From the NCBI GenBank assembly GCA_009869945.1, contig WIXG01000095.1, forward strand, positions 124,001 to 188,000: a stretch of 64,000 bases of DNA, in the 5' to 3' direction. A program made the translations under genes and the position numbers. Numbering within the stretch: the stretch's first letter is position 1; every line of letters begins with the position of its first letter. The notes beneath the pieces were generated by a model that was given only the letters and a program-made list of their open reading frames with translations, had not been told where the DNA came from and ran no database searches. Source of the stretch: Mesaphorura yosii (taxonomy: Eukaryota; Arthropoda; Collembola; Poduromorpha; Tullbergiidae). Positions 714 to 31,508 of this stretch are shown one piece after another.

Positions 714-1957
714 ATGCTGACGCGAAAAGAGCACCAGATTCTGGAGTTCTGTGGGTGGTTCGCATCCGTGACCGCGTTACTCTCATTTTCCTGGAATCGC
801 AAAACCTCCTTGAACCAGTTGTCCGAAATAAACTCAATTTGGAGGCGGGCCATCGGCTACATCAATATTGGAGTTGGTGGATTACATAGTGGTTACTTAC
901 TCGTCCGTTTTCTTCCCGGATTTGGCTACACAAGAGAAGATTGGCAGACATTCCCGTATCCCATTATGCTGCATCTGTTAATGACACTTGCGTACACCGT
1001 CACATTCATTATGCAAGTTCAAGCAGCTCCAAAAGTGAAAGACCTTACATACATCTTCAATCAACTGCTGAGCTTCAACAGAATCAATGGAAAGAAATAT
1101 TTGGCCATCGAATTTGCAGCCCGCACAAAACTAGACCGGTACTTAATCTGGTGTCCTGTGTGCTTCCTCCTCATGTGCACACCTTTCACGGCGCTGTCCA
1201 TCATAAAACCTTTGAACCAGCACAACGTTTATTCGATTCTACCCGATCAATGGCAAAATGGTTGGAGCCTTGCTGTTTGTGTTGGAATCGAGACTTGGAA
1301 CATGATGAAAGCAAGTTCAATGCTGTGGTTCACGTTCTACGTTGAATACGCGTACGTGAAAACGAGCATGTCTTGGATGAAGAAAATTCGGTAAGCACCA
1401 CGATATTAAATTGCAGATCCCAAAATTAGGCTTTGTAACCAATATTATGCTATTCATTTAGCTCAGACTGGCCAGTACCAAAACTGGACTACAAGCTCAG
1501 CTCAGTAAAAATGTACCGGTCTCTGAGTATATTAACAGCGTTGTACAACACTGGATTTTGTTTCACGCTCTTTCCAACTCTGAAAACAACGATGGAAATC
1601 GCAACAATCTTCTTTCTGTATGGAATCCTAAGATTTCATCACACAGCCGAGCTCTGGGTGTACATGATGTTCGTTTTCTTCGCTCCAACATTCATTTCCC
1701 TGCTTATCGGAGGAATTTCATGTATGACGTTCGTTAACGAGTTGTCACTGGAGCTGTTGCATGAATTCAAATTTGCAAGCATGAAAAATACTGAAGGGAC
1801 CGGAGTGGGTGGAAAAGTCCTGAGGAAGATGGTGGGCGCGTGTCAACCCATCTGCTGCAAGATTGCAGGACTCTTTTTCATGGAGAAGCGTACGAAGATA
1901 ATTTACATGTCCATGTTGTTTCAGTCGTTTATTTCTATTCTCATAGCAGTAGCTTGA
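714..1957 (+). CDS. Chemoreceptor-like multi-pass membrane protein R1 (tandem family)
   Basis: Two exons, 714-1390 and 1462-1957 (71-bp GT-AG intron, phase 2), encode about 390 aa. The protein starts MLTRKEHQILEF, the signature N terminus of the whole array, and has about six or seven hydrophobic segments. Its C terminus (GLFFMEKRTK, then IYMSMLFQS) resembles the TM7 motif of arthropod gustatory receptors (TY, five hydrophobic residues, QF) in spacing, including the conserved Gln. A chemoreceptor role is therefore inferred, not proven. Unlike R2-R7, the first family intron, after the FNxIxG codons, is absent here: coding runs on as FNRINGKKYL. A poly(A) signal AATAAA lies at 1997-2002. It could also be a Collembola-specific membrane family unrelated to receptors. 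Confidence 0.85.
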
Positions 1958-2199
1958 AATTGAACCAATTAAATTCACGTGCTGGCAATCGGCTTGAATA
2001 AATAGCAAGAAACAATTAACAATTTTATGAGTTAACTCAGATTATTATCGGCTACCGGAGCATGGAATTGCTAAGCAAAGAGAGAAATGGCTGAAAGTTA
2101 CCAATTTTCCCTGAGACCTTTCCTTAATTATCGGTCACGTACGAATGCTTGCGATTCTGTACCTAATTTCACCTCCAAATCACATCAGACAGAACCAAG

Positions 2200-3467
2200 A
2201 TGCTGACTCGGAGTGAACACAGACTTCTCGAATTCTACGGCTGGTGGGCGTCACGCTCGGCACTGTTTCCATTTTCATGGGATCCAAACTCTTTCTGCAC
2301 GCTGTCTGCTACAAAATCAATTTGGTGGAAAATCATTGGATATTTGAACCTGGCTCTTTCTGCCTTGCATGTGACTTACTTGTTTCTACGCTTCTTAGAC
2401 TACACGGACCAGGAGTACAAGGGATTTGATTATCAAATTGTAATTCAAGTGCTCATGGCGCTCACCAGTGTCCTGGTCCTCCTCATGCAGATCCAAGGCA
2501 CAAAAAACGCGGACACACTTGCAGTAATTATAAATCAGTTGCTGCATTTCAACAAAATTCAAGGTAAGGTCCACAACTTAATGTCTGGCAAAGAGACCCA
2601 TGACTCATGAGTCTTCATCGCAGGCAAAAAGTATTTGGGCAAGGAATTTGCAGAGCCCACGCGGTTGGAGAAAGTTTTTTGGATCCTACCCGGAGTCATG
2701 ACCTCTGGCTGTCTGCCCTTTCCAATTCTATTCATCATGAAGCCATACAACAAATACACTTTCTTTTCAATGGTCCCGGCTCCCTGGCAGACATGGTGGA
2801 TTCTCGGAATTTGTGTGGCATTGGAAATGTGGACACTTGTCAAAGGAATAACATGTAATTGGTTCACATTTTATGTTGGGTACGCGTACGTAGCTACTAA
2901 CAAGTTCTGGCTTCGAAGGCTTGGGTAAACATCCTAGAATTTAACTCGCTAGTCGCTATGAATTAATGGCTTTTACGGGGTAACAGTTCAGAATGGAATT
3001 CTGAAGGACTCGACAAGAAGGACAAGTATCTAAGGACTTATCGTTCTCTAACCATTTTGTCAACGCTTTACAACAACGGATTTTGCTCAACTCTCTTCCC
3101 GAGTCTGAAGACCTGTTGCGAAATATGCACGATTCTTTGCCTGTTTGGAACAATCAGACTGCATCATATTGAAATCTGGATCTATTTCATGTTCCCTCTG
3201 TTTGCGATGTTTGTTCTCTGGCAGCTCACAAGCACGATTTCGCATATGGCCCAGATTTCTGAACTGTCTCTTGAGCTGCTGCATAAATTCAAGTTCACAC
3301 GCGTTCAAACCAACGTAGAAAATCGCGTGGTGAAGAAAATGGTGGCTTCTTGTCAACCGATCTATTGCACAATTGGCAGGCTCTTCTTCATGGAGAAGTC
3401 TACCAAGATCATTTACATCTCAATGCTATTTCAGTCATTTATTTCGATTTTGGTAGGACTAGCTTGA
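2200..3467 (+). CDS. Chemoreceptor-like multi-pass membrane protein R2
   Basis: Three exons, 2200-2563, 2624-2924 and 2987-3467, give about 381 aa. Both family introns are present (60 and 62 bp, phases 1 and 2). The start MLTRSEHRLLEF matches the array signature. The motif WFTFYVGYAYV in the middle and GRLFFMEKSTKIIYIS at the end are shared with R1, R3 and R4. Predicted topology is six to seven transmembrane segments with a short N terminus before the FPFSW motif. This copy has the apparent ancestral intron layout. Gustatory-receptor-like function is inferred from topology and the C-terminal motif only. Confidence 0.85.
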
Positions 3468-3920
3468 ATCCGATAAGAATTTTGCATCAAAACGTGTGTA
3501 CAGTGTAGCCATTTTCAGTTGTTTCATCATCTCCTGAATTCTATTTCAGTTTTTTCAATTAGAAGACTTTTACTAAAATATTGTGTAATGTGTGTTATTT
3601 CAGAGTAAAACAACTTGAACATTTATACGAGAGCACTTTGCATTAATTTTTTCAGAATTGAGTAGATCTTAGAATTAACTTGAAGCAAAATATTTGACGT
3701 GTGTAAACAAGAAAGAAAGTAAATTCTTGTAGTTTGAAGTGATGTTGATCTCTCGTCCACGCAATTTCTTTCTATTTTATCAACAAATGTTAAAGCGATT
3801 GTCGTGATTAGTTATGAGTCTGTTTTGTATTTGCTTCTGGCAAACACAGACAATCTATTTTGGCGAGTGGTTACTTCGATAAGGTTGCGCCACGTCAAAT
3901 TACACCGCGCCATTTCCAAA
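3468..3920. other. Intergenic spacer R2-R3
   Basis: AT-rich spacer of 453 bp. A longer open frame reaches back to 3804, but every family member starts at MLT(R/K), which here is at 3921, so the extra codons are taken as 5' leader. No other feature is seen. Confidence 0.5.
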
Positions 3921-5147
3921 ATGCTGACCCGAAAAGAGCATCGTATGTTGGAATTCTGCTGTTCTTATTCATCCGCCATTTTGTTTCCGTTTTCCTGGAA
4001 CCCACACGCTTTCAACCAGCTGAGTGAAAGGAAGTCGCGTCGGTGGAAGCTTGTTGGATGGGGAAATGTGGCTCTCATGGGACTCAATGCAACGTCCATC
4101 ACGATTCGATTTATCCCTGGGCTTGGCTATACGAAGGAGGAATTTCATGACCTGCATTATTCAATTCTTTTACACACAGCAATGATAATCGGCTTCTGGA
4201 CAACGTTTATCATGCAAGTTCAGGCTACTGTTTATGCTAGTGAGCTGACCGCCTTCATAAATCAGTTGCTGCATTACAACGGAATACAAGGTACGTCTTT
4301 CTTTGGATTTCTTGCCGCAAGAGTACCCTACAACGTTTTAAAATTCCTTACGCGAACAGGTAAAAAATATCTAGGCGTGGAGTTTGCGCAGCCAAAGAAT
4401 TCAGAGAAAATGCTGATCGTGATGCCACTATACTTGCTGATGCTTTGCATGGTGATCCCTCTGCTATCAGCCATAAAACCCGGTCATAAATACGACTACT
4501 ACACAATGGTCCCTACTCGCTGGAGAAATAACTGGGTATTGGCATTTTGCGTTACGTACCAAGCGTGGCAAATGATAAAAGCTGTATCAATTAATTGGTT
4601 CACCTTTTACGTTGGCTACGCCTATGTCAAGACGAACAAGTGCTGGTTGCGGGAGCTCAGCTCTCAATGGACTCGCCAGACGCTTGAAGGCAAGAAAAAT
4701 ATTCTGCAAACCTACCGTTCTCTCACTTTGATGTCAACTTTATTCAATAATGGATACTGTTCAACTTTGTTCCCGGCTCTCAAGACCTGCTTGGAGGCGA
4801 TCGCGATCTTTTGCCTGTTCGGGGCGATTCGATTCCACCATATCGAGCTCTGGGTTTACATGATCTTTCCCCTGGGCGCACCCTTCGTGCTTATGCAAGT
4901 GATCAGTGCAATTTCAAGCATGGCGGACGTTTCCGAACTCTCAGTCCAACTCCTCTTCAAATTCAGGTTCATTAACACCGGAAGAGCAAATGAGGGACAA
5001 GGTCTCACATTGAAGAAAGCCGTAAATTCTTGCCAGCCAATTTATTGTAGGATTGGACGGCTGTTTTTCATGGAGAAGCGCACGAAGATCATTTACATGT
5101 CGATGCTGTTCCAATCATTTATTTCGATCTTGATAGGAATAGCTTGA
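3921..5147 (+). CDS. Chemoreceptor-like multi-pass membrane protein R3
   Basis: Two exons, 3921-4290 and 4360-5147, give about 385 aa. The start is set by the MLTRKEHRMLEF signature. Intron 1 (4291-4359) is 69 bp, a multiple of three, and has no in-frame stop, so a transcript keeping it would still be open with 23 extra residues (see findings). The second family intron is missing: coding runs straight through FWLRELSSQW-type sequence (WLRELSSQWTRQ). The hydrophobic profile and C-terminal motif are as in R4, its closest paralogue. Its last 126 bp include a 108-bp tract identical to R4. Possible poly(A) signal at 5309-5314. Receptor function is inferred. Confidence 0.87.
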   Translation: MLTRKEHRMLEFCCSYSSAILFPFSWNPHAFNQLSERKSRRWKLVGWGNVALMGLNATSITIRFIPGLGYTKEEFHDLHYSILLHTAMIIGFWTTFIMQVQATVYASELTAFINQLLHYNGIQGTSFFGFLAARVPYNVLKFLTRTGKKYLGVEFAQPKNSEKMLIVMPLYLLMLCMVIPLLSAIKPGHKYDYYTMVPTRWRNNWVLAFCVTYQAWQMIKAVSINWFTFYVGYAYVKTNKCWLRELSSQWTRQTLEGKKNILQTYRSLTLMSTLFNNGYCSTLFPALKTCLEAIAIFCLFGAIRFHHIELWVYMIFPLGAPFVLMQVISAISSMADVSELSVQLLFKFRFINTGRANEGQGLTLKKAVNSCQPIYCRIGRLFFMEKRTKIIYMSMLFQSFISILIGIA

Positions 5148-5482
5148 ATCTAAGAAGAATCTTACATAAAGAGCCATTTACGGTGATTTATTGATTTGGC
5201 TGCACAAACAACAATTTGGCCGCATCGTCTCGAATTCATTAGATAAATATAACGTGAGACGTGGTCAGATCTGTCTACACAATTTCGAAAAGTCTCTACC
5301 AATATTTGAATAAAAAATGTCTGTTCAATGTGGTCAGTTCTGTTTGTTTCTGAGAATATGAACTGCAGGTATTTACACTCCACTTTGGTAAGATTGCCGA
5401 CCGGATTTTGAAGTGAACTTTGGATTGGTGACGAAAAACCATATCGCATTTGAGTGCTATACTGAGTAGACGCAAGTACGAA
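5148..5482. other. Intergenic spacer R3-R4
   Basis: 335-bp spacer with the likely 3' UTR of R3 (AATAAA at 5309-5314) and the leader of R4. Nothing else seen. Confidence 0.5.
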
Positions 5483-6708
5483 ATGCTGACCCGAAAAGAA
5501 CACCGTATGTTGGAGTTCTGCTGCTACTATGCATCAGCCATTTTATTTCCATTCTCCTGGAATGCGTGTGCTTTCAACCAGCTGACAGAAAGAAAGTCAA
5601 TTTTTTGGAAAATTGTTGGTTGGGCAAATGTGACTTTCGTGGGACTTCATGCGACATTCATCACAGCTCGTTTCATTCCTGGACTTGGCTACACAAGGAA
5701 GGATTTCCACGACCTGCACTACCCAATAATCTTCCACACTGGAACAATGATTGGCTTTTGGACCACATTTATCATGCAAGTTCTGGCTACTGTTTACGCC
5801 AGTGAGTTGGCTGGTTTCATAAATCAGTTGCTTCGTTATAACAAAATACAAGGTGAGCTCCTTTACTTCGTGAATTACACACACCTTTGGCTTCTAAAAA
5901 TTCAATTTATCTCTGTGCAGGAAAGAAATATTTGGCAATGAAATTTTCACCACCCAAAAAGTCAGACAAGCTGCTAGTCGCGATGCCACTTTATTTCCTT
6001 GTGGTTTGCATGATGATTCCTCTGTTGTCAGCCATAAAACCTGGTCACAAGTACGACTACTATTCAATAATTCCTCTTCACTGGAGAAATGGCCGTGTGT
6101 TGGCGGCGTGTGTTGCGTACCAAGCGTGGCAGATGATAAAAGCTGTGGCAATTGATTGGTTCGCTTTCTACATCTTATATGCGTACGTGAAATCGAACAA
6201 ATTCTGGTTGCGGGAGCTCAGCTCCCGATGGACTTCTCGGACTTTCGATTGTAAGAAGAATGTCTTACGAACGTACAGATCTCTGACTTTGATGTCGACC
6301 CTGTACAACAATGGATTCTGCTCAACTCTGTTCCCAATTTTTAAAACCTGCTTGGAAGCAATTACGATCTTTTGCCTGTTTGGTTCTATTCGCTTTCGTC
6401 ACATCGAACTCTGGATTTACATGATTTTTCCTTTGGCCGTGCCCTTCATGCTTATGCAAGTGACCAGCGCAATCTCAACAATGGCAGATGTGTCCGAGCT
6501 CTCGCTACAGCTACTTTTCAAATTGAAATTTCTGAACAGCGGAAACACGGCCACGGGGCAGGGCCTCGCTCTGAGAAAATCTGTAAATTCTTGCCAGCCA
6601 ATTTATTGTAGGATTGGACGGCTGTTTTTCATGGAGAAGCGCACGAAGATCATTTACATGTCGATGCTGTTCCAATCATTTATTTCGATCCTGATTGCAG
6701 TGACTTAA
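5483..6708 (+). CDS. Chemoreceptor-like multi-pass membrane protein R4
   Basis: Two exons, 5483-5852 and 5921-6708, give about 385 aa, the same exon lengths as R3. The start MLTRKEHRMLEF is at 5483. By eye, hydrophobic segments lie near residues 42-64, 81-105, 139-160, 180-208, 255-275, 280-305 and 362-383, consistent with a seven-pass protein. The final segment carries GRLFFMEKRTK and IYMSMLFQS, similar to gustatory-receptor TM7. The second family intron is absent, as in R3, so that loss predates the R3-R4 duplication or was copied between them. AATAAA at 6782-6787. Ligand and cell type are unknown. Confidence 0.87.
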
Positions 6709-7153
6709 CGAGGAAATCGTTATTGGTCAATTGGTCGTGGAAGAATGTCAAAGAAACATCAGCTACAATTAAATTTTAAAAAATAAAATCGTTATGCTGG
6801 CTCCGACAATTGTATCTGAAAATGATTACCGTTGAGCTCTAAATCTCGATTGCTGACGTTTCTGGCTCATGACCGTGTAATTACGCCTTGTCGTAATTCT
6901 ACATTTTCATAGTTGGTTAAATGGGAACGGGACATGAGACATACAAGGCTTGACGATATCCAATATCGGAATCCATTATCCGATTATTAATCACCGACCA
7001 GAATTAGAAAATTTCGTCGGTTAGTACCAATTTATGTAAAAGTGAGACAGCATATTACGAAATATGTCGAGAAAACCGTCATTTGTTTTTTGAACCTCTC
7101 AGGGAGTTGCCATCACTAAATGCTGAGAGCCCTGCCGAGTCAGGCATGCCACC
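6709..7153. other. Intergenic spacer R4-R5
   Basis: 445 bp with the R4 poly(A) signal (6782-6787). The only notable site is the strong Kozak context GCCACCATG directly at the R5 start. Confidence 0.5.
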
Positions 7154-8434
7154 ATGCTGACCAGGAAGGAGCATCGAATGCTGGAACTGTGCGTCCTGTT
7201 CGCAGCAATCACGATCTTTCCCTTCTCTTGGAATTCGCACTCCTTCAATAAAGTACCTGTGGCTGTCACAAAATCAACTTGGTTGCGGTGGGTCCGCTTT
7301 ATAAATGCGGGGCTTACCGGAGCGCACGCTGTGTTCGTAATCGTGCGCCTGATTCCTGGATTTGGGTACACTCAACATGATTTTCAGACGCTGCACTATT
7401 CAGTCTTGCTGCAGGTGTTGATGGCGATCGCATTCTCAACAACGGCCATAATGCAACTTCAGACCGTGCTTAATCCCAGTGACCTCGTCACGGTTCTTAA
7501 CCAGTTGCTGCATTTCAATAAGACACAGGGTAAGTAAATATCTTGAGCACAAATCGAGAAAATGATGAATATTAAGAGCAAGGAATTGAACCATAGGGCG
7601 AAAGCACTTTAGCAAGGAATTCGCTGACCCATCCAAGCTTGACAAGTTGTTTTACATCTTGCCAGTGTATTGACCTTCTTTTGCATGATTGCCCCGGTGC
7701 TTTCTATCGTCAAACCCTTTCACAAGTTCAACTTTTATTCAATGCTACCGACTCAGTGGCAAAACTGCTGGACTCTTGGGGTTTGTGTTGGGCTTGAGAC
7801 TTGGACTATACTCAAAATGATGAATATTAACTGGTTCTCATTTTTTCTTGGCTACTCTTACTTAAAGACGAGCATATTCTGGTTGAAGGCTCTGAGGTAA
7901 GGCGAATTCCAAGATAAGCTATATTTACTCTTTGAAATGACGAGAACGTTCTATGTTTTTCTTATTTTAACTTCCAGGATTCAAGATCAGGAGGCAGACA
8001 CACTGGCGTTAGAAACGTACCGCTCTCTGAACATCTTGTCGACCATGTACAACAATGGATTTTGCTCCACGCTTTACGCAACGTTAAAGACGTGCTTGGA
8101 AGGGTGCGCATTCTTCTGTCTGTATTGCACCATCAGATTTCACCATGTTGCAGAGTTTTGGGTGTACATGCTCTTCCCGCTCGCTTCTCCGTTCATTTTA
8201 GGACAGTTGGTTAGCACAATCTCGTTTATGGCCGACGTGTCCGGTCTGTCCATTGAATTGATTCGCTCATTTAAGTTAGTTTGTCATGATCCTGTGCTCA
8301 AGAAACTCGCCAGTTCTTGCAAACCATTGCATTGTATCGTAGCTGGGATTTTTGCGATAGAGAAATCGACAAAGATTTTGTACATGTACATTCTGCTCCA
8401 GTCCTTCATCTCAATCTTGATCGCAATCGTTTGA
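7154..8434 (+). pseudogene. Chemoreceptor-like protein R5 with one frameshift
   Basis: Exons 7154-7529, 7597-7896 and 7978-8434 follow the R2 layout (introns 67 and 81 bp, phases 1 and 2). The start has a perfect Kozak context and MLTRKEHRMLEL. Exon 2 is 300 bp where R2 and R7 have 301. At about 7667-7670 the frame that reads KLFYILPVY meets TGA, and the family-like sequence (FFCMIAPVLSIVKPF) resumes in another frame, so one base of a T run appears to be missing. Everything else, including splice sites and the C terminus (YMYILLQSFIS), is intact. It is either a very young pseudogene or an intact gene with a one-base assembly error. AATAAA at 8676-8681. Confidence 0.75.
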
Positions 8435-8870
8435 ACGGGGTTAATTCGGTGAATTTATTAATTACATTAGATGTACTAAAGATTCCCGGCATTCATAAAC
8501 GTCCCTGTTTCTCATTGACACTTCAGTGAGCAACAACTATTTAATCATTCTGTTTGATCATTCTGTTGAGGCTGACGCCAATTAAAATTCATACTTTTCC
8601 TCACTCTATGAGACTGTATACTTATAAAGATTTAGGATTTACAAGATTTCGAAATGGATATGTTAGAGCGTGAATAATAAACTAACTCATGGAGCATTCG
8701 CGTTTCTCAAATTGTGCAGATGGAGGTTGAAGGACAAATTAATTTTTGAAGCACTCAATCTCACACAATATCACAGGCTTCTTTTCTTGTTCGCAAAGAA
8801 AGGCAAAAGATTCTCCATTCTCGTAAAATCTGAGTCAAGTTAGTGCACAATCAGCGCTCTCCTTCTCAAG
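8435..8870. other. Intergenic spacer between R5 and the BTB gene
   Basis: 436 bp with a poly(A) signal at 8676-8681 for R5 and the presumed leader of the BTB gene. No further feature is seen. Confidence 0.45.
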
Positions 8871-10009
8871 ATGAGTTACCAGCCAGAATTGTCCGACGAT
8901 GGCGAGGCCGAGATTGACTGGCAATCCAATCAAACTACAATCCAGGACGCCAACGCTTATCTGCTGGAAACGGAAACTTACTCGGACGTCACATTTATTG
9001 TCGGAGAGCAACGTGAGACTGTTCGAGCCCACAAATTCATACTTATGTCACGCTCCCTCGTGTTCGAGGCCATGTTTCAGCGCTGGGAAAAAGATTACGA
9101 CTGTGAAGTGGAAGTGAGTGAAGTCAGCGTCCCGGCTTTCAAAGCCTTTCTGAAGGTAAACGAATTGCAAGGCGATAATTAACTCCATTTTTAGTTGTCC
9201 TAATCTCGGCATTTGCTTTGAACTTGGCATGGCATTTTTAGTTCCTGTACACTAACGATTTCTCGAAAGTCGCACTGGACGCTGGACAAGTCTTGTACCT
9301 TGCACACAAGTACGACACCAAAGTGCTGGCTGCAATCTGCTCCAACCTGATGAACGATTCCATTTCATTGAACAACGCTCTACGAATTTACAAGCTGGCC
9401 AAGAGTCTGGAGCAGTCTGAACTGATGATCAAGGCGAAGAACTTCATCCTGCGGAATGCACGCGACATTTTTACACAGACACAATTCCTGAACACGGAGA
9501 TCGAATTGCTGTACGCGTTCGTGTCGTGTGATAACCTAATCATTGACGAACTCGAGCTTTTCCGTGCCATCATGCGTTGGGCTGAGAATCAGTGCCGTCT
9601 CAAGTGCATCGACAACACAGGCGAGAACAAAAGGATGGTTCTGGACCGACTTCTGACACTCATCCGGTTCCCAATAATGGATCCAAGGGATTTCACATCA
9701 GAAGTGGTGCATAAGCACAATGGAGTCCTCAACGATGATGAAATCATACAGCTGTACGTGTACTACAACTCCCGTAATGAAGTGCGCAATTCCCTGCCGC
9801 CAATGCCTTTCAGCTCGGCGAAGCGTGACCTTTCAAAATATGAAGAGCATCACACATTTCCGCCCCTCAAAACTTCCAGTACGGTGGGGCAACGCATTCA
9901 GACTTTGCCCACCTCTACGACTGGTGGCTTTGCAAAGTGCGTTGGAAAAGGAAGCAAGTCAAGCTCAAGACGTGCAAGCTCCAATTGGTTTCGAAAATAC
10001 ATTCATTAA
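8871..10009 (+). CDS. BTB-BACK domain protein, BTBD3/BTBD6-like, without PHR domain
   Basis: Exons 8871-9155 and 9242-10009 (86-bp intron, phase 0) give 350 aa. Residues about 30-125 form a BTB/POZ domain (YSDVTFIVGEQ, then VRAHKFILMSRSLVFEAMF, then FLYTNDF and VLYLAHKYD across the splice). Residues about 130-250 match the BACK domain of the BTBD1/2/3/6 group (AIMRWAENQC, LLTLIRFPIMDPRDF). Such proteins usually recruit CUL3 through BTB and continue into a PHR domain. Here the protein ends in a Ser/Thr-rich tail of roughly 90 residues instead, so the substrate-binding half is missing or replaced. It interrupts the receptor array between R5 and R6. AATAAA at 10060-10065. A role as CUL3 adaptor is inferred from family. 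Confidence 0.9.
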
Positions 10010-10648
10010 TGGGTCAATTGGTGCTTTGTAATCTCGTTTACGAGTCAGTAATCTAGGTCAATAAACATTTAGCTAGCCTATACAACGCTACATTTAACTT
10101 GTAATAACGTCGATTTAATATTAATTTTTTGTGATTCTTTTTAAGGCTCCGACTCGTCAATTCTGAGGTGGCTTGCAGCAGCGGCTGTCGCGAATCCGCA
10201 AATCGAGTGCTTGAACGGAAAATGTTCCTCTGGTGCTAATAGTAATCATGTTTAGTTTCTAAATTATTTAGATATTAGTATGGATTTTATCTGCTCTGGC
10301 CATTAAAGGGCCGTTGGTTGAAAGGTAGGAAAGCCATTTAAGATTTGACGGAAGCAGAATCGGATTTATGGTGGGCGCATTTGTTGATTCTTCCGACAAA
10401 AAAAATAGACTTTTGGGCAATCATTGACTGCTTATACCCGATTGACTTCAGACATAACTATTTTATATATCTTTTACCTTGAGTAGTATTTGCAACTGTC
10501 AAATAGCTATTCATTCAATTTCGCGTTCAAACGTACTTATTCGACATTTCAACTGACCGCGAACTTTTCTTGCCATTCGCCTTACGGAAATAGACAGCTA
10601 AACAGCCAAAACACTTTCAAGTGCCGGTTCAACTGCGACCCAATTAAG
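10010..10648. other. Intergenic spacer between BTB gene and R6
   Basis: 639 bp with the BTB poly(A) signal at 10060-10065. An open frame reaches from 10490 into R6, but the signature Met at 10649 is the likely former start. No other feature. Confidence 0.45.
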
Positions 10649-11978
10649 ATGCTGACCAAGAGAGAGCATAAACTACTAGAGCTTACAATAATAGTTTCAT
10701 CCGTCACGTTCACGTTTCCATTTTCATGGAACCCGCACTCCATCGCCAAAGTGAGCCCTAGAAGTTCAATCTACGCGTTGCTGCTCGACTACGGAAGCCT
10801 TCTCCTCGGGATAGCCTACGTAACATTCTTACTCGTAAGATTTGTTTCAGGATTTGACTATACCACGGAAGACTATGCTAATCTTCACTACTACATCATA
10901 CTCCACACCTTGTTCACGATAGCGGTCACAATGACAGTCGTGACACATATCCAGGGACTTGTAACAGTTCAAAAATTTGGCGTCGGTTGTAAATCAGCTT
11001 CTGGCATTCAATGGAAAGAACGATAAATTTGCATTTGATTTCACAAATTCAAGCAGTACCCCTTTAAATACCACCACAAAGAAATTTTAAATTGTGATAT
11101 ACTTTCAGATATTCGATATGTGGGCCACGAATTTCGACAACCCGATATTCGAGAGAAAATCATGTGGTTCACACCGATCTACATGTGCGTGGTCGCGATT
11201 TTCATCCTAGCCCTGAGTATCCTGTCCCCGAAGAACAAGTTCAATTACTACTCAATTGTACCGGAAGGTTGGGAAAGTCCTTGGCTGCATGGATCGCTGA
11301 TGCCCCTTGAATTCTACAGCTTCGTGAAACTTCTGAACCTGAAATGGTTCACTTGTATACGGCTACGTTTACATCACAAGTCTTTATGGCTGAAGAAAAT
11401 GCGGTAAGCCAAGCCAAGTCAGCGCTGCAAACTGTGCAAACTAAGTAAAATACATTTAGACAAGGAATTCTTTCTCCGCAGGGTCGAATGGACTTCGCGA
11501 CCAGAGCGGAAGGATGACATTGTGCAAATGTACCGATCTCTCACGTTGCTAAATACACTTTACAACAATGGATTCGCCAAGACCAACTCGGAACGTTGAG
11601 AATGATGTCGCCTGAATATTTTCTCTATTTTGAATGATTCGCCTGTACAATTCGGCAGCACTTCAAGTGTACGCATTGTTCCCCTGCGTCGGCTCCATTA
11701 CAATGTCTCAAGTCATCACGGCAATCATGCACATGGCTAATGTGTCCGAGTACTCTATCGATTTGCTGCACGAGCTAAACACGCTTCAGGTCAAGGCTAT
11801 ACACGAGGGAAAAAACCACCAAGGCCAAGCCTTTCTAGAGTTCAAGAAGAGAGTGACATCGTGTAAGAGGTTGAATTTCAAAATTGGCAATTTGTTCTTT
11901 GTGGAGAAATCGACAAAAGTGGTGTACGTATCATTATATCTACAATCCTTCATTTCTATTTTGCTAGCACTGACGTAA
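10649..11978 (+). pseudogene. Chemoreceptor-like pseudogene R6
   Basis: The copy begins MLTKREHKLLEL and keeps the three-exon plan: exon 1 from 10649 to about 11022, exon 2 at 11109-11403, exon 3 at 11482-11978. It carries several lesions. There is a one-base shift in an A run near 10975, after which NLASVVNQLL-like sequence continues in another frame. No GT donor is present after exon 1, where the paralogues have one. Two compensating shifts occur near 11350-11385 around the WFT...YVY region. In exon 3 about 40 codons after NNGF are scrambled and contain stops. The C-terminal part (11634-11978, ending VYVSLYLQSFIS) is still open. It was evidently a full gene of the family that has decayed. 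Confidence 0.85.
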
Positions 11979-12602
11979 CTCAGGTTTAATTACTGTAAAC
12001 TTGTAAACTGTTGCACAGCCATGTATTATTTACTGTTCCTGAGTAAAATTGAGAGCGCGCTTAAAGTAAATTGATTGGTTTTAGACGAGTAGCTATGAAT
12101 GGATCGAAAATTGGTATATTTCCCAATATTTCCAGATTAATTGTTAGTTGGGTAAGACGATAGGATCTTCGGGTTTGTTGTTCGTACGCATCGAAAGCGC
12201 ATGAATCGAATACTGTGGTATCAATTTTATCTCCGGAAATGGGAGATAAAATGAACTTGAAGCATTTTGCTATCGTAATCACAAAATTTAAGGCGTCACT
12301 AAGCACATACTTTGTACAGTCTGAGAATAACCAATTTTGAAAAGTAATTACTGTTTGGTATTTGATAAGTATTTTCACACGAGTTGTTCCTGTCATGTCA
12401 ACGCTTCTATCGATCACTCAACAAGGAAACAGAAAATATTTTCTAACCACGCAATTTATCGATTGTCGACACCTTCCTTACTTGATTGGAGCTCATTGAA
12501 GCGAAGGACGCAAGTCGGAAGTAAAACCGCTTGTCACAGAATCAAGTTCAGTTCAGTTCACTTATCGTCTTGCAACGTTTGTCAACGCAAAATGCAGGAG
12601 CC
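11979..12602. other. Intergenic spacer R6-R7
   Basis: 624 bp without a recognisable feature. A minus-strand open frame at 12061-12417 has no domain-like content. Confidence 0.45.
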
Positions 12603-13931
12603 ATGCTGACCAAAATCGAGCACCGTGCTCTCGAGTTTGTGAGCCAGCTTGCTTCCATCTCGCTGACGCTTCCTTTCTCATGGAGTGGCAAACGTTTCGC
12701 CAAGCTGAGTACGAAAAGGCCCCTCTGGTTTGCCGCTTCCGGTTACGCCAGCACATTTCTCACTGGCTTTCATCTTGGTTTCTTGCTTGTGTGTGCGATA
12801 CCAGGGTGTGGGTACACAAAAGAGGAGTTTGCTTCGTTACACTACTCCCTATTTCTTCATCTAACCCAGGTGATTTCTTACATCACTTTGTTCGGGATGC
12901 AGTTGCAAGCCATTTTTAATGCGAATGAGTTGGCATCAATCGTCCAGCAGCTTCTTTACTTCAATAAACTACGCGGTAAGAGTAATTGCATGTGATACAA
13001 CCGGCCGATCGTCAAATTTTGTATTTTAATCATTTTAAAATCTTTTAATTTTTAAATAGGAAAGCATTACTTCAACAAAGAATTCGGCGATCCGACCATT
13101 AAATCGAAGATAATCTTCTCGATGCTGCTTGGGCTCGTACCACTTGTATGGATCTTTTTTGCTCTGAATATCCTGATCCCATCGCAAAAGTTCAATTTAT
13201 ACTCAGCTCTGCCAGAACAATGGCAAAAGTGGTGGATGCTGGCTCTCTGCGTGTCAATTCAACTCTTTTCGATGGTGAAGGCCGTGATTGTGGACTGGTT
13301 CACATTCTACGTTGGCTACGCGTACGTCACAACTGCCCGCTTCTGGCTGAAGAAGATTCGGTAAGAACCAACAACTTGTATTCCTCTATCTCTTTACATG
13401 GCTTTCAAAATTTCATGATTCAGATCTGAATGTGGAAATCCCAGCGAATTCGACTTCAAGTCCGATGTGATTCAAATGTATCGTTCACTGACAGTTTTGA
13501 ACACGATGTACAACAACGGATTCTCATCAACACTTTTTCCTGCACTAAAATCAGGACTCGAAGCATGCGCCCTCACGTGTTTGTACGGCATTTTTCGTTT
13601 GTACGACTCAACAGTCATTTGGGTGTATGCAGTTTTCCCAATATTTGCACCATGTTGCATTGGGCAGCTTATGGGCACGATTATTTACATGGCCAGTGTT
13701 GCTGAATACTCTGAGGAGCTTTTGCGTAGCTGCAAAGTCGTGTGCGATGCTCCCACATCAAATGCAGTCGGTTCTGGGAGACGAATACAACAGCAGGAAT
13801 TGAAGATTCTGAAATCGTGCAAAACAATGTATTGCAGAATCGGATCGCTGTTTTTTGTAGAGAAGAGCACAAAATTAGCATACATTTCACTTCTGCTGCA
13901 CACCTTCATTTCGATGTTGGTAGCGTGGTAA
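12603..13931 (+). CDS. Chemoreceptor-like multi-pass membrane protein R7
   Basis: Exons 12603-12975, 13060-13360 and 13424-13931 give about 393 aa. Introns are 84 and 63 bp with the same phases (1 and 2) as R2 and R5, supporting this as the ancestral structure. The start is MLTKIEHRALEF. Family motifs seen include LPFSW, WFTFYVGYAYV, TMYNNGFSSTLFP and IGSLFFVEKSTK near the end. The last motif reads AYISLLLHTFIS, so the Gln conserved in the others (position of QS) is His here. It is one of the most diverged intact members. Receptor-type function is inferred from the family pattern. Confidence 0.86.
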
Positions 13932-18387: not shown

Positions 18388-19302
18388 TTAGAAAGGATTG
18401 CGTGTCACCGGTGACTTTTCCACTGCATACCGCTGCCACTTGCTTTCCATCGACGCGGTTGCGTTGGTCCAAACCAAGTTTGACCCCTCCAATTCGAACT
18501 TGGTCGTATTTGCATTCAGTGTCTGCATTTGCCCTTCCAGTTTCATGGCTTCGGGTGACCCCATCATCTTTGTACTCATACCGTCGAAACTTTTCCATGT
18601 CGATCCTTCTCGTTCCAGTTGAAAGTTGATGGTGTTGACAATTCTCATACTCACATGGAACTTGCCAGGCTCTCTTTCCAACACATTGATCGTAACTGGA
18701 GTCGGAAATTCTTGCGCGGCTCCGCTGACTTTCAATTCGTTCTTGACCAACTCCCAGTCGCCGTTAACGCCATCCCAAACGCGTGGAGGTCGAATTAAAC
18801 TGGCTGGTGTCCCGTCAACTTTTTTTACCTCGAGGGATCCGGCTCCGTAAAACTGTGCAACCGGATAAATGCCCTTCAACGTCGACTTTGGCAAATCATA
18901 CGCCACGCCAAGAGAGCGTCCGTTGACATCAAAGTAGACCTTGAGGTTGTCCTTGTCCTCGAAAGTTACAAAAATGCCGACTTCATCTCCAATACTCAGT
19001 TGAGGGCCAAAATCTTCGACAAGAAGGGCGGCTCCATTCGACAGGTTCCTGCCGTAAAGCAAAGCTTTCATTGCCCAACCAGCTTTGAATTTCTCCTTGT
19101 CAGTTACTCCGACAAAGATGGACGCATGCTCAACAAGGTCGGTCACTTTCAGTTTCCAGTAATGCTGTCCACTTGAAACTCCTTCAGCCGCATCTTCCCA
19201 AAGCCCGTTGCAAACGTCATTCGTGGTCGCTTTTGTGCATGTCAACTTGTTTTCAGACGCTTGAAGGTCGGTGGAGTCTCCTGTAAACCACTTTGGAGCC
19301 AT
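18388..19302 (-). CDS. SPRY-domain protein with an unrecognised C-terminal domain
   Basis: A single open exon encodes 304 aa from MAPKWFTGDS. Residues about 15-150 fit a SPRY fold: GQHYWKLKV, then a hydrophobic FVGVTD, then GDEVGIFVTFED and VYFDVNGRSLGVAYD, followed by YPVAQFYGAG. SPRY domains bind peptides and act as adaptors. Residues about 165-300 have no domain I recognise but look beta-rich (WELVKNELKVSG, FHVSMRIVNTINFQL, FELEGSNLVWTNA). The first Met lies just after a likely acceptor (ccttcacag then AAA ATG), so a noncoding 5' exon probably exists upstream. No signal peptide or membrane segment is visible, suggesting a cytosolic protein. Confidence 0.88.
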   Translation of the reverse strand: MAPKWFTGDSTDLQASENKLTCTKATTNDVCNGLWEDAAEGVSSGQHYWKLKVTDLVEHASIFVGVTDKEKFKAGWAMKALLYGRNLSNGAALLVEDFGPQLSIGDEVGIFVTFEDKDNLKVYFDVNGRSLGVAYDLPKSTLKGIYPVAQFYGAGSLEVKKVDGTPASLIRPPRVWDGVNGDWELVKNELKVSGAAQEFPTPVTINVLEREPGKFHVSMRIVNTINFQLEREGSTWKSFDGMSTKMMGSPEAMKLEGQMQTLNANTTKFELEGSNLVWTNATASMESKWQRYAVEKSPVTRNPF

Positions 19303-22020
19303 TTTCTGTGAAGGAGTAAGCAAATGCAGCTTTAGGATTTTAGAATTTTTTTAGTGAAATATTGCAGTACAAAAACTGCCGGCCTACCTTCTTGTCAAAA
19401 TTCGTTGCTAATTCAAGAGGAATGTGAATTTGGTTACACTTTCAACGAAATGTAGCAAGTAACTGACGAGTAAATGCAGAGTAAATAGCAAGTGTATATT
19501 TATGTAAAGCTTTTGCAGCAGTGAATCAGCACCATTAAAACCAAGACCAAACTCACTTGTGCAATTAAACTGCAACTAATTCGTAAAATTCTTTTCATGT
19601 ACAACACACACTTGAGCCGTATCAGAGGCGGCGATATGACTCACATGAGTAATGTCAATCCATAAATGAATGAATTATGAAGGCTTGCGTTTGCGTTCGC
19701 GAATACTGCGGAAGTTCTTTATTGGAAATTGGTTTCACTATCCAGCATAAAATGCATATGTAATGAGGAATTTGCAAATGAATATCTCTCAATCATTACT
19801 TGAAGTGCTGCAAGGGATTAATTCTTTTATCAGCAGGTGTTTTACATTAAATATAACCTTCTGCAAATTAGAGACAGGACGCGACAATGTCATAGCTTGT
19901 AAACAACTATGTGATAAGAATAATGGGTAGCTAAAGCATTTTTCTAATGCAAATATCCTGCAGCGGAAAGCACAGAAAACAGAGACACACTAAACAATTA
20001 TCTGCATTTTATTCTCTTCAAAGGGGTATCGATTACACAGTCAATCACACACATAAGGTTAACACATTTGTGCTAACAATGTCGTAATCAATATCGGCAA
20101 TGTATCAACTTTCAGCCATCGTCATTGCCATTCTGCGTTCAGTTTTCATTCCCTTGGTCGTGACCGTGACTCGGCGGTGAGTATGATTCAGTCAGAGCAG
20201 AATGCTTTGTACGTCATGAAATTGTTGGACATAAGATGAATGATTAATTGAGCGCAATTAAGATGATCAATACATCTGTGGCCGAGACTTGTTTACTGCA
20301 GAAATTTCCAAAGTGGGGGTGGTCGAGTATCTGTGTTTTGTCGTTTACAGAGGAAACATGCTCCTAGACTAATTTGCTGTTAATCTTAAAATTTCAAATC
20401 TTAAATAAAATGCATGGTTCCATTGCTAACATTTTGATGCTGACTTTCAATCTCTCTCGTGTCGTGTGTCAAGTAGAGAATGACAGGCCTCACAAATCAA
20501 GAATGCCAGCGCCACAACCACTCCTGTAGCAATGGAATGGAATCCGGAAGAAGCAAGTGTGAACCTCCTCCCGTGCAAGATTCTTGCATCCCAAAATTAC
20601 CCTGCCGCAAATTCTTTCCGCATAGTCGACGTCCAGGCAAATTGCTGCATGACTCATAACGTTGTAATGGCGATGCTCGAAACTCGATTTGCCCGATGCA
20701 CTGCACACTGCAGTGTGGAATATTTCTGAACAAAAATTTGGCACAGTACGAATTTCATTACGTTTCATTTCATTCGCATAAGCTTTCCACATAATTGAAC
20801 TCTACTCGAGACGCGACTGAACCACACGCTAAACGACTACGACGGTGACAAAGTGCGAATAACGAATAAGTGAATGCCAATTTCAAGTGCAGAGCAGGTT
20901 AAAGCTCGGTGAAGTACGAATGCGCGTGTTCGGTGTGGTGTCATTGTTATTTATATGGAAAAAGCGTCCCGCCTTCTAATTCTACTGCGGATTTTATCAC
21001 TTGATAGCGTAGGAGTTGATGCCAAAAGATAGTGCGACGACGGTCTATAATGAGTCTAGTGTTTTTAATCCTGTCGCCGGACTACGCTACTGCTATTACG
21101 CTTTATTTACATAAACAACGGAGACAACAACAAATATGAGTCGCGGCGTGACGAATCTGAATTAAAGATAAGGAATGAATAAAACTTGCATCAACAATGC
21201 AAAAGATCTATACTTTATTTTCTACAAATCTGAAGTTGAATGGGTCCGGCATTTTAGAAATGCGCTGCCGGTTGTTTCAAGGTTGGTCTTCCACTTGTTT
21301 TACTACTACAGTTGGGCTAATTTGGAAGGTGAGAGGCGACCACGTAACCACTGATGATGTATGGTAGTTAAAACAAGAATCTAAATATAGTTTCGTAGTA
21401 GTATTACTTGGAATCAAATAGCAAATAGCAACAAATTACACGTAGGAAAGGGAAATTTTGGAGCAGCGTGAAGCAAACTAGATTTACGAGCCTTTCTAAT
21501 GCCCGTGCTAAAAGCTCTATGCCATACGGACTTCGGGCTGCGGTGGCGCAGTTACGTCCACGTCAGGAAATCCACCTTTGCATGGAGCGTTGCACAGAAA
21601 ATGTTATATGGTCCGCCCTATCCCGAAAATGTTTCTTTAAAAGTAGACAACGATGTGCGATGCGATGCCAGTGTACCCCGCAAAATCTATTTTTAAAACT
21701 TAAAATATCGTCTTCGTCTTGTTTCTAAAACACAAATACCTCCTCGCAGAATCCGCTACACTGCCTCTCATTCTGTTTTACTGCATTATGATCATGATCC
21801 GATGATTCTCATCAGTTATTTTTCTAAACGCGATCTTGCAGACTTCAACAAATACTTCTCTATCTCCTTTCCTCGTAGAATGTCTTTTCAAGTGTGTGAC
21901 GCAATTTTTTGCAACCTCTAGAATTAATTTAGTTTTGTGCACGTAATCCGCTCGCTTCCATCTTCTAGTCATTTCTAAGCTTAGTACTTTTCATTTTCTT
22001 GCATTTAATAATTCTTAATA
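19303..22020. other. Intergenic region, SPRY gene to long Doa-type exon
   Basis: 2.7 kb between divergent genes, holding promoters and probably noncoding 5' exons of both. Open frames here (for example 20490-20792 minus and 21468-21728 plus) are short, overlap each other and show no family features. No repeat or RNA gene is recognised. Confidence 0.45.
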
Positions 22021-28672: not shown

Positions 28673-31508
28673 ATGCTCCAGGAATTTCCTAGTTCTCAAG
28701 AGCACGATCAATTCAGCCAACGCCCAAATGGAACCTTTGACATGGACAAGGACATGGACACGTATCATCACATTCAGTTGCCGCTCAGCCGTCAAAGTTC
28801 ATCCGATCTTATGATTCAGAAGGATCCAGTCAAAGCTGAACCAAAAACGAAGCGAAAAGTATCCACCGACAGAAATGGACAAGCGCATGACGATGATTGT
28901 GACCACAAAGACGCAAATGGCTTAATGGTGAGTTATGTACGCGTAATTATAATCGTATGTGCATTTAAAGTAGCAGGGCCATGAACATGAATATGAATAA
29001 CGGCTAAGAAAATCAGATACTTAGTAGTGACCACCACTACTACCGTTAAAATTTACTCATTACAATAATTTACGCGCGCGGAGAGTGTCAAGCTGACGCA
29101 AAACGACGCACGTGTATGTGTACTGACGTAATTTGACACTTGCAGACCTCCTCATGGCTCAAGTATGCCGGACATTGCCCCGGGCTCGACTCCTTCCTCG
29201 GAACCAGACATGAAATCTGTTGGGCACCCGTGAAGTTCGTCGACGCTTTGTTCCGTGGAGTTTCACAGGTTAGCTGAAGTAGAATTCGTGCGAAGAGAAT
29301 GAATCACAGTGCTAGAATTCTTACCATTTAATAATCGTGTACCGTCTTTTGCCCGACTTTTCCCCCCAAAACTACCTTTTGCCATAATGTCCTCATTACC
29401 ATTATTTTTAAATTAAGTGCAGATAGACATGTACACATAAGACAGACACTGAAATGAGTCAGAAAATGCAGACTTCAGAAGTGTCAGACTTGGACACTAT
29501 GCATTAGTTGTGATTGTGGGACCGCAGCGATAGCTTCTCCTTTCAATAATCCAAATTCAGAATGAGTTTAGTTTCGTGCCAAGCACAAAAGGGAAGGAGG
29601 TACCCGTGCTGGACTAAATACTTTCGAACAAGGAAATGTATCCGAAGGGAATTAACCGAAAAATTAACGAGCAATTGCAAGAAATCTTAGGCACGTATAA
29701 CACCACCGCGCCAGATACCATATCTTATCTTCAGTCCGTGGCTACCTATGTTAAGTATTATCACATTACATATAATTTTTTATACATTTTTTGACTTTGG
29801 AAAATAATTAAGTGAATGCCCGACAGTTGTGGCAAAAAGAACAGTATGGAATTTGATCATTATGGGAAAAAAGTCGGGTAAAACGCATTGAAGAAGGCTT
29901 TCGGGCAAAAGACGTAAGACCTTTTTAATCAATAATCGCAGGTTGTATTCGCAAATAACCCCGTCACCGGGCTCCTGATCACTCTTGCTCTCTTCTGGTC
30001 AGACTGGGTGGTTGGTTCAGCTGCAGTGGGCGCTGCAAGCGTGGCAATTTTAACAGCATTCGTAAGGCTTCTTATTTGCATTTAGTAGAAGCTCTTGCAT
30101 TACAAGTGCAATTTGTGCTTTTTAAAATAGTTGATTGGCCAAGAAACGGCGAATATTCAAGCCGGACTGACGACGTACAGCGCCGTGCTCGTGGGATGTG
30201 TCACAGCCTCCATCTGGACGCCCGTGTACGGGGAGGCTGTTCCAGTGACATTGTGGGCTTTCGTTGCAATCGGGGCTATGTTAAGGTAAGGACAAATGAG
30301 TCCTCCTTTTGTACGACCCACGGCAGCCAGTGGCTATAATTTTAATGATTTATGTTTGCAGCGTCTTCTTGACATCCGCATTGGCCAACATGCTGTCGTC
30401 ATTCCGAATACCGCTCCCATGTCTCACAATGCCCTTCAACATTGTCAACCTCTTGCTCTTCACCTGCTTCATGCCTCCTCCGAGTAGTCCACTGGCTCGA
30501 CACTTAAATGACGCGAGCGCCATGAATTCTACGCCAACGCTTGAGCAGCAGCTTAATCCGAATTCGACCCCAGAAGAGCTCAATTACGCAAAGGTTCGTA
30601 TCCATTCAATTTACTGGCATTTCAGCGTAAAATTGCAGGATAAGCTAAAGGTGTACCTTTCTTTTGGTCTCGCAGTTGTTCACGGGCATAGTTTGCTCGA
30701 TGGGGCAAATTTACGGAGTGGAAAACATTTTTGCCAGCGTTCTGATGTACGTTGGAGTCATGATCTATTCACCGACATTATCTCTGATGGCTTTCATAGG
30801 TGCGAGTATCGGAACCCTTTGTGGTAAGGAATCGCTCTTGATTCTTGCAATGCAAAAATTTTCCGACTCGAATTTCGAAAAAAAAGCTTCGGAATAAAGA
30901 CGCAATACTAAACCTTAAAATGAGTCGTCTCTAACGACGTAAGGGACCTTGGACTCGCTGATGAAGAGTCCTGGCTTACTGAAAAACAAGCTAACAAGCT
31001 CTAATTTTACTTCAAGGACTCGTGTTCGTGGCCGGACCGACCTATACAACAATATACGCTGGTATCTGGGGCTACAACGCAATTCTATCAGCAACTGCAA
31101 TCGGTGGCTTCTTTATTGCGATAAATTGGCTCAGCTTTTGTACTGCGATTGCAAATGTGATTTTCGCAGTGATAATACAACAAGGACTTATCATTGCCTT
31201 TCATACTGTAAGTTGACCGCCCTTCCAAAACAGTTCATTTTCATGAGTGCGCGCTTAATTAGTAAAATTGTTGAAATTTTTTCTAGTTACGCCTTCCAGT
31301 ATTCACTCTCCCGTTTGTACTCAGCACGCTGCTCTTTTTATCAGTGAATTCCACGAGGGAAGGACTTGCGAGAGTGAAAAACATAACATTTCCAGAAATG
31401 CATTGGTTCGAATACGTCAGGAGACTAAAAGACAAGGCACAGAGTCGAGACAGGAATGCGAGCTTGGTCGAAGTTATTGTAGATAACACAGCTCAATCTA
31501 ATCTGTAG
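28673..31508 (+). CDS. Urea transporter (SLC14/UT family)
   Basis: Eight exons chain in phase (28673-28927, 29146-29268, 29942-30061, 30131-30285, 30362-30593, 30676-30823, 31017-31207, 31287-31508) and give 481 aa. The first 85 residues are hydrophilic and presumably cytosolic. The core has the two-repeat UT architecture: VVFANNPVTGLL in repeat 1, then the signature FRIPLPCLTMPFN; MGQIYGVENIFAS in repeat 2, then LRLPVFTLPFV. The UT signature L-P-x2-T-x-PF occurs twice as expected. The family forms trimeric channels that pass urea down its gradient across plasma membranes. Intron 2 is unusually long (673 bp) because of an inserted MITE-like element. AATAAA at 31587-31592. The pore residues look conserved, so it is probably functional. 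Confidence 0.93.
29342..29914. mobile_element. MITE-like element in urea-transporter intron 2
   Basis: A perfect 14-bp terminal inverted repeat, CGTCTTTTGCCCGA, is at 29343-29356 and its reverse complement at 29901-29914. Both ends have a TA dinucleotide just outside. Subterminal sequences are also partly inverted (cgacttttcccc at the left, gggaaaaaagtcggg at about 29864). The roughly 570-bp body has no complete frame. TA flanks would fit a Tc1/mariner-derived MITE, but the target duplication cannot be proven because one extra base sits between TA and repeat on the left. Confidence 0.6.

Follow-up and report, generated by a model that had tools for sequence, protein, structure and literature searches.

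A tandem cluster in the collembolan Mesaphorura yosii that probably belongs to a large, motif-less branch of the Or/Gr superfamily

The superfamily of odorant receptors (ORs) and gustatory receptors (Grs), also called 7TMICs (seven-transmembrane ion channels), comprises tetrameric, ligand-gated cation channels with the pore on S7b and a cytosolic anchor. Motif-less 7TMICs of flies were named Grl by Benton and Himmel (PMC9998090), and the collembolan Holacanthella has a reported Gr set without ORs (PMC5644144). The locus considered here lies in the collembolan Mesaphorura yosii, on a stretch of 64,000 nucleotides referred to as the window (contig WIXG01000095.1, C95:124001-188000, in a genome of 93 Mb and 1127 contigs). 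It consists of seven tandem same-strand paralogues, R1 to R7, at window positions 714-13931, and a six-frame reading, together with the sequence, reproduced exactly both end coordinates given in an earlier note on this DNA. R1-R7 probably form one local cluster within a motif-less Or/Gr branch of the Grl kind that is both very large and divergent, a reading to which we assign a probability of roughly 0.8. The window proteins were not classed as canonical Grs because they lie below the cut-off of the Pfam family 7tm_7 and also lack the motif. The description of the proteins as gustatory-receptor-like is retained for the fold match and for the bridges to Pfam-verified Grs of the same genome, but not for the proposed mimicry of the TM7 motif or for a family size of seven.

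Structure prediction was made for one target, R3, modeled as a 408-residue read-through of its open intron, with 23 of the residues coming from the intron. The model has a predicted Orco/Gr-like fold with extended S4-S6 helices and a split S7 (S7a/S7b), and the comparison with insect OR/GR structures that had been suggested as a check produced a match. Full-length structural matches were to OR/GR chains only, among the matches listed, and these included no GPCR, which does not exclude a family beyond them. The fold, the helix order, the long S4-S6 and the split S7 are common to the R3 model and the canonical Grs BmGr9 and DmGr43a (PF08395). About seven hydrophobic segments had been noted earlier, and a hydropathy scan with a 19-residue window over the five intact proteins (R5 and R6 left out) counted seven in R2, R3 and R4, eight in R1 and six in R7. 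The placement of lysine and arginine fits an internal N terminus and an external C terminus, a topology derived from K/R counts only.

Two sequence bridges connect the family with canonical Grs. The first is a member on contig C99 (L041:4713-5216), for which the family profile A1 gave 47.7 bits and 7tm_7 gave 28.7 bits, the latter exceeding the Pfam cut-off of 26.6 bits, and which falls inside the family in the tree. The second is L084, a Gr above the Pfam cut-off (36.1 bits) that keeps a T-F-x5-Q ending and was found by profile A1 at 39.7 bits, the best of 534 reversed open reading frames reaching 10.8. When 43 family members were compared with 15 own-genome Grs by hhalign, the C-terminal block gave a probability of 57 (P 1e-4), versus 0.2-0.3 with one side reversed; on its own, this match is suggestive only. 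Smaller alignments gave a profile-profile probability of 0.2 (A1 versus A2), which amounts to nothing, and of 49 (A3 versus A2). The Gr profile recovered the family weakly, with a best score of 17.0 bits (L061) versus 11.7 for the best reversed control. The distant relative L040 was also tried as a bridge; its 25.5 bits to 7tm_7 lay under the cut-off and were not repeated in hmmscan, and it was replaced by the C99 member and L084. A sequence search of the PDB with the family profile returned only two matches, both imine reductase, which were taken as chance.

Several results weigh against assignment to the Or/Gr superfamily. Model confidence was moderate (mean predicted local distance difference test (pLDDT) score 66.3, predicted template modeling (pTM) score 0.58), with pLDDT averages over ten residues of 46-69 from residue 251 onward; the underlying alignment held 17 rows, 16 of them partial; the modeled sequence included the intron read-through; and Foldseek gave a best E of 0.003, none below 0.001, with root mean square deviations of 7.9-11.0 Å over 14 rows. 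No match to 7tm_7 (PF08395) was found in R1, R2, R3, R4 or R7; among 38 full-length relatives, chosen as single open frames, just two matched it, weakly (best E 0.0039). Among the 15 own-genome Grs, L084 alone was matched strongly by the family profile; the 43-member profile gave at most 20.3 bits on the other 14 (best reversed control, 14.6), that value belonging to L081 and the remaining Grs scoring 11.0 or less or being unlisted. The hhalign result is not significant alone, and TYhhhhhQF, the TM7 motif of Grs, is absent in the family. An unrelated seven-helix membrane family, such as a GPCR or a transporter with a convergent likeness, would accord with the moderate model confidence and with the window proteins having no meaningful match in Pfam. 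Such an origin is barely plausible in view of the full-length structural matches, which among those listed are OR/GR chains only, the K/R placement fitting an internal N terminus, and the sequence bridges to Grs. Pfam alone would have led to a reading as an unknown family, which was rejected. The family 7tm_6 of insect ORs and Orco (PF02949) likewise had no match in R1-R4 or R7. A genome search with 7tm_6 found none either, but it cannot show the absence of ORs because the control genomes gave no match.

The sequence Y-x5-Q-S had been taken for a counterpart of the TM7 motif. This was not borne out: in the profile and MAFFT alignments, the TYhhhhhQF block of Grs falls instead, offset by one residue, on the last ten residues of the family (SFISILIGI in R3). 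At the position of the motif glutamine, none of the 42 members with a residue there has Gln. Over 43 proteins, this column holds Ala (18), Asn (10), Thr (4), Gly (4), Val (2), Leu (2), Ser (1), Met (1) and one gap, the gap being L011, which is cut two residues short in the 43-member set and shows Ala in a separate alignment. The neighboring register is Ile, Leu or Val in 43 of 43. The own-genome Grs keep the Gln in 11 of the 11 that reach the C terminus, 4 of the 15 being cut short. A Leu three residues ahead of the last motif position is present in 41 of the 43 family proteins; in BmGr9 the counterpart of this kept Leu, L441, packs against S5, and Q443 turns into the pore on opening, and in MhOr5 exchange of the same Gln for Ala or Arg abolished agonist-activated calcium influx (PMC11100771). 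Between the C terminus of R3 and that of BmGr9, the register was the same in two of five VIA rows (model 407/408 versus chain 444/445) and differed in three, at the end where the R3 model is weakest. The C-terminal block of canonical Grs around (F/Y)(F/Y)-x-(L/M)-x-(R/K) aligns with the family, whereas TYhhhhhQF occurs only in the Grs; the conserved C-terminal feature of the family is the block P(L/I)-x-x-x-(V/I)G-x-(L)(Y/F)(F/Y)(M)E(K/R).

The possibility that R1-R7 are canonical 7tm_7 Grs that merely evolve fast, with motif loss as a misalignment artifact and nothing separate about them, draws on the sequence bridges to own-genome Grs and on the extreme divergence that is normal for Grs. It is very unlikely, however, since Gln is found in the 43 members neither at the aligned position nor in the neighboring register, and since a tree built from 44 family rows together with 12 Grs split the two sets at 97/97, although this tree was midpoint-rooted and its end branches are long (median 0.97). 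Set against the Grs, the five intact window genes group together, and L011 is nested among them. The deep order of the tree is unsure because of the long end branches and because one Gr, C608, is cut short at the C terminus.

The family also proved far larger than the seven members described in the earlier note, occupying at least about 150 places in the genome. With R4 as query, 115 exon-level matches were obtained; L040 gave 110, R3 itself among them at an E of 3.5e-7. Of these, 85 and 102 matches, respectively, extend to the C-terminal end of the query; with overlaps merged, they yielded 153 non-overlapping places on 110 contigs, broken copies included. The true number may be higher, since scores were obtained for only 107 of 221 and 109 of 275 candidates. 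Among the distant relatives, many consist of a single open frame. A 7tm_7 search of the genome gave 61 exon-level matches versus the 153 places of the motif-less branch, counts that differ in kind and are both lower bounds. Within R1-R7, the statement that all members share the same signatures was too strong. As counted by eye, MLT(R/K)xEH is present in seven of seven, whereas FPFSW is exact in five (LSFSW in R1, LPFSW in R7), LFFxEKxTK occurs in six (IFAIEKSTK in R5), and Y-x5-Q-S occurs in six (Y-x5-H-T in R7).

The same fold could have been taken over for a non-sensory role, in development or in ion or metabolite transport. The loss of the gate motif would suit this explanation, as would earlier cases of 7TMICs whose roles are different or unknown (PMC9998090, PMC5644144), among them a cnidarian Gr relative with a reported non-sensory role (PMC5644144). 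A similar takeover is possible for PHTF. Large size, tandem arrays, pseudogenes and high divergence, however, are typical of chemoreceptors and not of housekeeping transporters; as the present family has all four, a non-sensory role is unlikely.

As members of a motif-less Or/Gr branch, the proteins would assemble as tetramers via a cytosolic anchor built from S4-S6 and S7a, would bind small molecules in an S1-S6 pocket and would conduct cations through a pore that S7b lines. As every examined member lacks the gate Gln, the gate may be unlike that of known Grs, or the subunits may partner a motif-bearing Gr; the genome does contain Grs with the motif, so a candidate partner is available. A rather doubtful extension is an OR/Orco-like division of labor inside the Grs, of independent origin, in which a few motif-bearing co-receptors would supply the gate Gln and at least about 150 motif-less proteins would act as tuning subunits. 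If true, it would have been overlooked because Gr annotation uses Pfam 7tm_7 or the QF motif as a filter.

The features of the cluster and its surroundings are collected in the table. Splice models, in which the introns are GT/AG and 60-84 bp long, yielded intact proteins of 381-393 amino acids for R1, R2, R3, R4 and R7. R4 is 40-75% identical to the other four intact copies, and resemblance by chance is therefore no issue. R5 is either a recent pseudogene or an assembly error, and R6 is a pseudogene because of the defects listed. Three further minus-strand copies found directly upstream of the window in the genome search with R4 extend the cluster past the window, to ten copies in all.

Positions and gene structures in and next to the R1-R7 cluster (window coordinates unless a contig is named)
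Feature	Position	Strand	State	Exons, introns and remarks
Three further copies	C95:118494-123214	-		directly upstream of the window
R1	714-1957	+	intact, 390 aa	exons 714-1390, 1462-1957; GT/AG intron 1391-1461; intron 1 absent
R2	2200-3467	+	intact, 381 aa	exons 2200-2563, 2624-2924, 2987-3467
R3	3921-5147	+	intact, 385 aa	exons 3921-4290, 4360-5147; intron 4291-4359 open, in frame; intron 2 absent
R4	5483-6708	+	intact, 385 aa	exons 5483-5852, 5921-6708; intron 2 absent
R5	7154-8434	+	frame break in exon 2	exons 7154-7529, 7597-7896, 7978-8434
BTB-BACK domain gene	8844-10009			PF00651, PF07707
R6	10649-11978	+	frame breaks in all three exons, early stop	exon 3 stretch missing (by eye)
R7	12603-13931	+	intact, 393 aa	exons 12603-12975, 13060-13360, 13424-13931
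SPRY + META open frame	18388-19350	-	320 aa	adjoining weak matches, below cut-off
Urea transporter-like exon	30300-30827			PF03253, 26.1 bits (cut-off 25)

The missing introns, the first in R1 and the second in R3 and R4, imply precise intron loss inside the cluster, or gain in the other copies. An intronless copy, L011 on contig C171, is nested in the tree among the intron-bearing window genes. Together, the intron absences and L011 suggest retrocopying or cDNA-mediated conversion. Nonsynonymous and synonymous divergence (dN 0.139, dS 1.11) were usable only for R3/R4, as dS was not computable in 6 of 10 pairs and was 2.8-3.0 in three of the other four; the low dN/dS speaks for function, at least for this pair.

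The BTB-BACK domain gene separates R5 from R6 within the cluster. Elsewhere in the window, the pairing of SPRY with META looks unusual, and a single exon matches the urea transporter family. In the genome, PBP_GOBP, a family of hexapod proteins, gave four partial matches of 26-31 bits, above the cut-off, on contigs C21, C653, C7 and C872; together with the 7tm_6 search that found no OR, they are a hint of a non-insect hexapod but no proof. DIOX_N, tried as an indicator of springtails and then abandoned as a lead, gave 12 matches, the best being a 335-residue oxygenase-like frame (L086 874-1881, minus strand) that looks bacterial, either as a contaminant or as a horizontally acquired gene.

No published description of the branch was found in the titles and abstract openings searched, which does not show its absence from print. 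If the assignment to a motif-less Or/Gr branch is true, the chemoreceptor repertoire of this lineage exceeds the count given by a Pfam or motif search, and the branch-wide loss of the gate Gln poses a testable question, namely whether Gr-type gating proceeds without Gln or via a partner. The division of labor, if true, would explain the way in which a large chemical repertoire arises in a hexapod-like animal where no ORs were detected. For Holacanthella, 18 Grs are described, with a C-terminal T/SXXXXXXQF motif required, a filter that the R1-R7 branch would fail (PMC5644144). Drosophila Grl proteins share the Or/Gr fold but almost no sequence similarity with that superfamily, the kind that the R1-R7 branch fits; they comprise ten fly genes, seven of which have homologues in drosophilids only (PMC9998090). 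The branch differs from Drosophila Grl in occupying so many places in one genome and in having a measurable sequence bridge to Grs.
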